Source: Buchnera aphidicola str. Ak (Acyrthosiphon kondoi) (GTDB lineage Bacteria > Pseudomonadota > Gammaproteobacteria > Enterobacterales > Enterobacteriaceae). Taken from it: 64,000 nucleotides of DNA. Both the position numbers and the translations under genes were made by a program. Under the pieces are notes generated by a model. The model saw only the letters and a program-made list of their open reading frames with translations, was not told the origin of the DNA and did no database searches. Of the stretch, positions 2,864 to 3,893 are shown in pieces (position 1 is the first letter of the stretch; every line of letters begins with the position of its first letter). The stretch is from assembly GCF_000225445.1 (NCBI RefSeq), contig NC_017256.1, forward strand, positions 310,001 through 374,000, written 5' to 3'.

Positions 2864-3661
2864 TTATTTTAAATAATATTTGCGTATTTTTTCAGTAATT
2901 AATCTAATTAATTTTGGACTGCTGGTTATATTACCAGAATGACAATCTTCATATTGGTGTCCTCCTGTAAAATCACTGATTAAACAACCAGATTCTCGAA
3001 CTTGTAACTTACCTGCTATAAAGTTATTAGGTTCTAAATCAAAATCAAATAAACAATCTATTTTTCCAGCTGCAACGTAAGCCAAATCGAGTACAGTAGA
3101 ACCAGTACATCTAAAAGAAATGCCAGATAAAATTAATTTTTGATATATTTTAAAAGAAGATAAAATGTCATTTTGAATTTTATTAGGTAGATTAACAGCA
3201 ATCGTTGTTTGATCTAAAGTATTAACTTTGCTGCATCTAGTACGGTATCCATTTAATTGAGAACCTTGTCCTTTTACAGCTGTAAATAAATCATTTTTTA
3301 TAGGATCATATATTACAGAAATTTCAGTTCTGTTTTTCACAATAACAGCAATAGAAATGCAAAAATACGGAAAACATTTAATAAAATTATTTTTTCCATC
3401 TAATTCATTGATAACCCAAATAGTGTTTTTTTCATTTTTTTTAATAAAAATATTTTCATTTTTTTTTAAAATAATATGATTAGGATAAGATCTATGAATA
3501 ATTTCACTTATTATTCTATTTGTTTTATACATTATGTTTTTTATAAATGTTTTGTTTTTTTCTAAATCTTCTATAATAAATTTATATGTATCATAATTTT
3601 GAATAATAACGTTTCCTCCTTTTCGTACTGCACGAATAGCAATATTTAACATTGGATGCAT
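2864..3661 (-). CDS. suhB: SuhB, inositol-monophosphatase family protein with degraded active site; likely antitermination factor
   Basis: 265 residues against 267 in E. coli, collinear from MHPMLNIA to the end. SuhB is an inositol monophosphatase fold that in E. coli also joins the NusA/B/E/G complex for rRNA antitermination. Most catalytic metal ligands are changed. The EES motif reads KKN (66-68), DPLDGT reads NELDGK (85-90), VTNVD reads IKNIM (40-44), and PWD near the C-terminus reads PNN (211-213). The fold-defining stretches (NFIK, YDP, GSTVLDLAYVAAGKID, SDFTGG) remain. I therefore infer that phosphatase activity is lost and the RNA-polymerase role kept. A good ribosome-binding site (AGGAG, 7 bases before ATG) supports expression. 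Confidence 0.9.
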   Translation of the reverse strand: MHPMLNIAIRAVRKGGNVIIQNYDTYKFIIEDLEKNKTFIKNIMYKTNRIISEIIHRSYPNHIILKKNENIFIKKNEKNTIWVINELDGKNNFIKCFPYFCISIAVIVKNRTEISVIYDPIKNDLFTAVKGQGSQLNGYRTRCSKVNTLDQTTIAVNLPNKIQNDILSSFKIYQKLILSGISFRCTGSTVLDLAYVAAGKIDCLFDFDLEPNNFIAGKLQVRESGCLISDFTGGHQYEDCHSGNITSSPKLIRLITEKIRKYYLK

Positions 3662-3893
3662 GGTAATCTCCTAAATTTTAAACTTTTTTAGAATAATATC
3701 ATGATTTAAATATCTTTAATATGCATTAAGAAATAATAATATTTTTTAAAATATTAAAACAGTGTGAAAATTAATGAACTTATTATATTAATTGAGTTAT
3801 ATAAAATTATAATACATTTTTACTATTTTTTTTCTTCTAGGGTGAAATTTTAAATGAAAAAGTATTTTTTAGTAATTCATTTCAGGTCTATAG

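Follow-up and report, generated by a model that had tools for sequence, protein, structure and literature searches.

The SuhB protein of Buchnera has lost most of its inositol monophosphatase active site and is probably retained as an rRNA transcription factor

The closest described counterpart of the protein considered here is SuhB of Escherichia coli, which is both a Nus factor and an inositol monophosphatase (structures 2qfl, 6ib7, 6ib8, and 6tqn). It is already known that catalysis is dispensable for the effects of suhB mutants, and two reports state that these effects are relieved without SuhB phosphatase activity (PMC6614801, PMC4807359). The first report further describes that joint mutation of K251 and L254 of E. 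coli SuhB abolishes stable binding of the AR2 domain of NusA, that full-length NusA still partly binds after this mutation, and that AR2 is dispensable for the entry of SuhB into the complex (PMC6614801). Another paper describes the metal-binding residues and the active-site Thr in relatives from the superfamily (PMC5516325), and these were transferred by motif to residues E67, D84, D87, T89, and D212 of the E. coli protein. In this work, we have examined the suhB gene present in a stretch of 64,000 nucleotides (referred to below as the window) from the genome of Buchnera aphidicola str. Ak (NC_017256.1, positions 310,001 to 374,000). Our analyses indicate, with a probability of about 0.8, that the SuhB of this window is a pseudo-phosphatase that selection has preserved for its function in rRNA transcription as a Nus factor.

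The open reading frame at positions 2864–3661 of the window is the suhB gene of this genome. It is located on the minus strand (3661–2864), where it starts with an ATG at 3661 and encodes 265 amino acids; frame 1 of the plus strand over the same positions contains many stops. As the first-pass annotation of this DNA had claimed, the protein is homologous from end to end to E. coli SuhB, with which it was aligned across residues 1–259 (phmmer E value 7.4e-69 vs 2qfl) and with which it shares its predicted fold. It matches the Pfam inositol monophosphatase superfamily PF00459 with 134.5 bits (cut-off 27), and among the six NCBIfam families listed its top model is NF008027 (inositol-1-monophosphatase, PRK10757, equivalog), which it matches over residues 1–261 with 264.8 bits, short of the curated cut-off of 332. 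The protein is orthologous to SuhB and not to CysQ, as E. coli SuhB entries stand at the top of the 30 distinct sequences listed and a CysQ comes last. CysQ is a separate gene, which provides the second match to this Pfam family within the same Buchnera genome.

At the positions corresponding to E. coli D44, E67, D84, D87, T89, and D212, the window protein contains M, K, N, D, K, and N, respectively. Five of the six active-site residues are thus substituted (D44M, E67K, D84N, T89K, and D212N) and D87 alone is retained; relative to E. coli SuhB, L254 and R184 are also replaced. D44 is a catalytic Asp. The residues of a catalytic inositol monophosphatase, viz. a Glu and three Asp ligands together with a Thr, are not found as a set in this protein. 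The first-pass annotation had stated that most of the catalytic metal ligands were lost, and the changes E67K, D84N, and D212N, with D87 kept, bear this out. Its readings of DPLDGT as NELDGK (D84 is N, D87 is D, and T89 is K), of VTNVD as IKNIM (D44 is M) and of PWD as PNN (D212 is N) agree with our alignment. Its reading of EES as KKN was out of register, as KKN aligns to T66-E67-E68, but the loss that it described stands, E67 being K and E68 being N. The features concerned are the following:

2864..3661, minus strand: suhB coding sequence, 265 amino acids, ATG start at 3661
3668..3672, minus strand: AGGAG, likely ribosome-binding site 6 bases upstream of the ATG (sequence reading)
3530..3532, minus strand: codon for M44 (E. 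coli D44; alignment, counted coordinates)
3461..3463, minus strand: codon for K67 (E. coli metal ligand E67; alignment, counted coordinates)
3407..3409, minus strand: codon for N85 (E. coli metal ligand D84; alignment)
3398..3400, minus strand: codon for D88 (E. coli D87; alignment), the sole acidic metal ligand retained
3392..3394, minus strand: codon for K90 (E. coli T89; alignment)
3023..3025, minus strand: codon for N213 (E. coli metal ligand D212; alignment)

These changes are general within the genus. A suhB gene with an open reading frame was present in all 36 Buchnera genomes that were searched, and of the six active-site residues, one was retained in 35 of these genomes and two in one. 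Three of the four acidic ligands have been replaced by non-acidic residues in 35/36 genomes (a gap at E67 in locus L029 being scored as a loss) and T89 is lost in all of them. The loss of D44 and the catalytic Thr, in addition to three of the four acidic ligands, makes it very likely that the Mg2+-dependent inositol monophosphatase activity is gone.

The partners of E. coli SuhB, viz. NusA, NusB, boxA, and boxC, are also found in the genus Buchnera. NusA (identity to E. coli of 0.75) and nusB are retained in 36/36 genomes. In the 30 NusA sequences that were aligned, with genome G026 (see below) set apart, the mean identity to E. coli was 91% in the KH region, 55% in AR2, and 45% in AR1, where the limits of the domains other than AR2 were set by us. 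In all 30 of the 16S leaders read, which came from the 35 genomes with a 16S match among the 36 searched, boxA and boxC were present upstream of the 16S rRNA gene in the forms GCTCTTTAA(A/C)AA and TGTGTGGGCAC, and the linker between them closely resembles that of E. coli. An E. coli-form boxA pattern, GCTCTTTANCAAT, was found in 3/36 genomes of the genus and in none at the 16S leader, and it was discarded; the Buchnera form, which differs from it, was read from the leaders. The exact 12-mer GCTCTTTAAAAA has only two genomic copies, at C1:275026 (16S leader) and C1:543443 (interval between tRNA-Glu and 23S). With one mismatch allowed, it was found at 16 places vs 23 for a reversed control, and for this reason we place weight only upon its exact matches. 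In the genome containing the window (G000), the 16S and 23S rRNA genes are separate and lie outside the window, each with its own upstream boxA (L359, L360).

The structure of the window protein was modeled with AlphaFold2 from an alignment of 43 sequences (predicted local distance difference test score 83.3; predicted template modeling score 0.86), with low-confidence stretches at residues 72–76 and 237–242. Among 1000 chains compared, the closest solved structures were SuhB of E. coli and of P. aeruginosa, and the model possesses the inositol monophosphatase (IMPase) fold. The fold is thus predicted to be intact; this match is weak evidence, because the alignment consisted mostly of active relatives, which the model is expected to resemble.

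The same site was also examined in a sample of 198 genomes from the family, 191 of which contained a suhB match with an E value of 1e-30 or better; 163 SuhB sequences were aligned. The reduced genomes outside the genus Buchnera numbered 62 (0.3–2.4 Mb), and their small size suggests that they are those of symbionts. The large-genome set represents 64 of the 125 large genomes in the family sample, fetched non-randomly from the best-scoring listed matches, with G063 dropped and E. coli K-12 added; 40 of these genomes were assigned a nominal size of 4 or 4.5 Mb (the family listing gives 3.3–5.5 Mb). The rows dropped were L131 (from G063, which is 49 percent complete with a fragmented suhB), L120 (a second locus of G195), and G157 (a match without a locus). 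At least one of the six active-site residues was lost in 60/62 reduced genomes, the other two (G043 and G086) retaining all six. At least one acidic ligand had changed to a non-acid in 59 of the 62 and at least two in 55, and none of the 45 genomes of 1.0 Mb or less possessed an intact site. All six residues were present in 62/64 large-genome rows, the exceptions being G104 (3.3 Mb) and G181 (3.1 Mb). Counted by genus code, the 60 reduced genomes with losses represent 48 genera beyond that of Buchnera itself, and in one of these genomes (G071) the alteration is limited to D44 (D44A). Genomes G104 and G225 (L122, L123), of 3.3 and 2.1 Mb, share a genus code and have lost most of the SuhB active-site residues, which indicates that the loss need not await extreme genome reduction.

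The site was also compared across 80 named gammaproteobacterial loci that formed a set of their own; it was intact in 75 and altered in five, viz. Candidatus Steffania adelgidicola (G169 of the family sample), Candidatus Gillettellia cooleyia (G170), two Vibrionales (A44), and a Candidatus Oceanisphaera metagenome-assembled genome (E44). The first two contain DKDNKD and NGYDAV, respectively, at the six positions. Their site is thus also broken, but unlike Buchnera, partly different residues are affected and both K251 and L254 are intact. In the Vibrionales (L323, L324) and Oceanisphaera (L345) loci only D44 is altered (to A or E), a hint from these sequences that D44 may be less strictly required than the metal ligands.

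Phylogenetic trees based upon SuhB alone were constructed from 97 rows (62/62 reduced, 10/36 Buchnera, 21/64 large-genome, and 4 outgroup sequences), and they indicated four loss changes, or five when the active-site columns were removed, where long branches and weak forks make the counts unsure. Independently of any tree, the 98 affected sequences cannot all be accounted for by changes at a single position or at two positions; at least three are required, a pattern in these sequences that would fit several first hits, though it allows for reversals. We consider it rather probable that endosymbiosis has stripped SuhB of its phosphatase repeatedly and independently, as seen in some 50 of the genera sampled from the family, while the protein was kept as an rRNA transcription factor.

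The distribution of the changes along the protein also bears upon selection. The six active-site positions are invariant in the 62 large-genome sequences that served as the reference for invariant positions (G104 and G181, in which the site is broken, were excluded). In the 62 reduced genomes, these positions were kept in 0.285 of the cells vs a mean of 0.65 for random invariant sets of six (P 0.0001), and in the genus Buchnera in 0.171 vs 0.57 (P 0.014); when only acidic positions were considered, active-site loss was still in excess in the reduced set (P 0.005), all of these P values ignoring kinship among the genomes. Among 130 invariant positions, five of the six rank within the 24 least retained in reduced genomes, and D87 ranks 54th. 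Ten residues (W81, N91, P97, Y117, N122, F125, N136, L190, Y194, and E222) match the E. coli residue in 98/98 sequences (36 Buchnera and 62 reduced). Family-wide, the enzyme site was thus released and much of the remainder held. Buchnera CysQ, a 3'(2'),5'-bisphosphate nucleotidase by NCBIfam-type homology that belongs to the same Pfam family and occurs in the same genomes, served as a control. Unlike SuhB, it has kept all six active-site residues in 33/33 genomes of the genus where it was found (G001, G018, and G020, 3/36, gave no second match and were left out). The median ratio of nonsynonymous to synonymous substitution rates (dN/dS), obtained by a simple counting method from non-independent pairs, was 0.284 for SuhB, 0.365 for CysQ, and 0.126 for NusA. 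Because CysQ keeps all six residues and SuhB is under purifying selection, the loss in SuhB is not plain decay. The statement that suhB does not look like a dead gene is upheld by these values and by its open frame throughout the genus.

These results are best explained if selection retains Buchnera SuhB, which most likely lacks Mg2+-dependent activity as judged from its residues, in the structural role of a Nus factor. The protein probably keeps the SuhB fold and would bind NusA as well as the linker between boxA and boxC in the nascent rRNA leader, and it may help the loading of NusB/S10, by which rRNA transcription and folding would be protected on RNA polymerase. We infer the loss of activity, the binding to the Nus complex, and the Nus role as the reason for retention. 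The lost site, the open frame, the low dN/dS, the predicted fold, and the retained NusA, NusB, boxA, and boxC are best accounted for by the earlier proposal that selection here keeps SuhB for its role on RNA polymerase; the word "only" in that proposal goes further than these observations do.

A number of observations weigh against this explanation. The NusA contact had been expected to be less degraded than the active site, and this holds for position 251, which is K or R in 36/36 Buchnera and 47/62 other reduced genomes, but not for L254, the other AR2 contact, which is altered in 36/36 Buchnera (T in 27) and is L in 47/62 other reduced genomes. R184 is likewise altered in 36/36 Buchnera and retained in 12/62 of the others. 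When only acidic positions are considered, active-site loss in the genus is not significantly in excess (P 0.28, kinship again being ignored). In one Buchnera genome (L355; G026 C1:419800-422400), the NusA frame is broken immediately before AR2 and an AR2-like stretch is present in another frame; the break may reflect a sequencing error, a slippage site, or genuine loss. At the thresholds used, no SuhB match was found in 7/198 family genomes (G094, G111, G129, G134, G136, G166, and G219), all of them reduced. A nusB match was present in 67/68 reduced genomes and exceeded the cut-off in 65, including four without detected SuhB (G094, G219, G166, and, as a fragment, G134), and G094, G219, and G134 also showed a boxA-boxC match. 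The exact boxA-boxC pattern, so strict that misses carry little information, was found in 16/68 reduced genomes (three without detected SuhB) and 5/6 large genomes, and the match in G208, with a linker unlike the others, is probably due to chance. A strict joint disappearance of SuhB and nusB or boxA-boxC was therefore not observed, and the Nus system can apparently persist without SuhB. In addition, one study counts suhB among the genes that Buchnera of Calaphidinae plus Phyllaphidinae have lost (PMC11188193). A symbiont that possesses a Nus system thus seems to benefit from SuhB without strictly requiring it.

Of the other explanations, the one that survives best, while still unlikely, is that the emptied site has been rebuilt, lysines 67 and 89 substituting for Mg2+ by pairing with D87, or else binding RNA. 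The recurrence of the same residues in Buchnera (K67 in 31/36, N84 in 34/36, D87 in 35/36, and K89 in 33/36) agrees with it, but other reduced genomes differ there (T89 is replaced by I in 20/62), and special conservation of the replaced residues was rejected, the five replaced sites being not significantly more conserved than other changed positions (P 0.12). It is very improbable that suhB is a decaying relic, heading for loss with its catalytic and other parts all drifting; its lower identity to E. coli (about 0.42 vs 0.75 for NusA), its listed loss in some Buchnera lineages, and the seven genomes where it was undetected point that way, but the dN/dS below that of CysQ, the open frames, and the ten residues shared by 98/98 sequences argue against it. 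That SuhB remains a phosphatase with fewer metals or a different substrate has the smallest chance of all, as the retained D87, the two named Vibrionales that suggest D44 alone may be dispensable, and the few mildly altered reduced genomes such as G071 are outweighed in Buchnera by the non-acidic ligands and the universal absence of T89.

With regard to its surroundings, the good ribosome-binding site noted previously agrees with the AGGAG ahead of the ATG, and a scan for promoters and terminators around suhB found nothing informative. The neighboring open reading frames are presumably topA and rlmN. The genome containing the window has 653,223 bases in 3 contigs, and 6,000 bases of its second contig match a leucine plasmid carried by the Buchnera symbiont of Acyrthosiphon caraganae (99.5% over 99% of the query).

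Among the matches listed from open-access full-text literature, subscription papers being outside the scope, no report of active-site loss in a symbiont SuhB was found, and the wide occurrence in nature of a dropped catalytic site with the protein retained appears to be new. It would constitute a natural separation of the phosphatase of SuhB from its Nus role, which are hard to distinguish in E. coli, where to our knowledge no metabolic need for the phosphatase activity is known. The ten residues found in 98/98 sequences are candidates for requirements of the Nus role, although structural constraints imposed by the fold could suffice to explain them. If this explanation is true, the SuhB phosphatase would meet a need of free-living life that disappears within a host, and the reason why free-living bacteria retain the catalytic site becomes testable. 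Inositol metabolism has been inferred for Blochmannia from an IMPase-family gene (PMC1360075). Our results advise caution in inferring inositol metabolism from symbiont suhB genes, and pathways inferred in this manner would, if the present explanation holds, be wrong.
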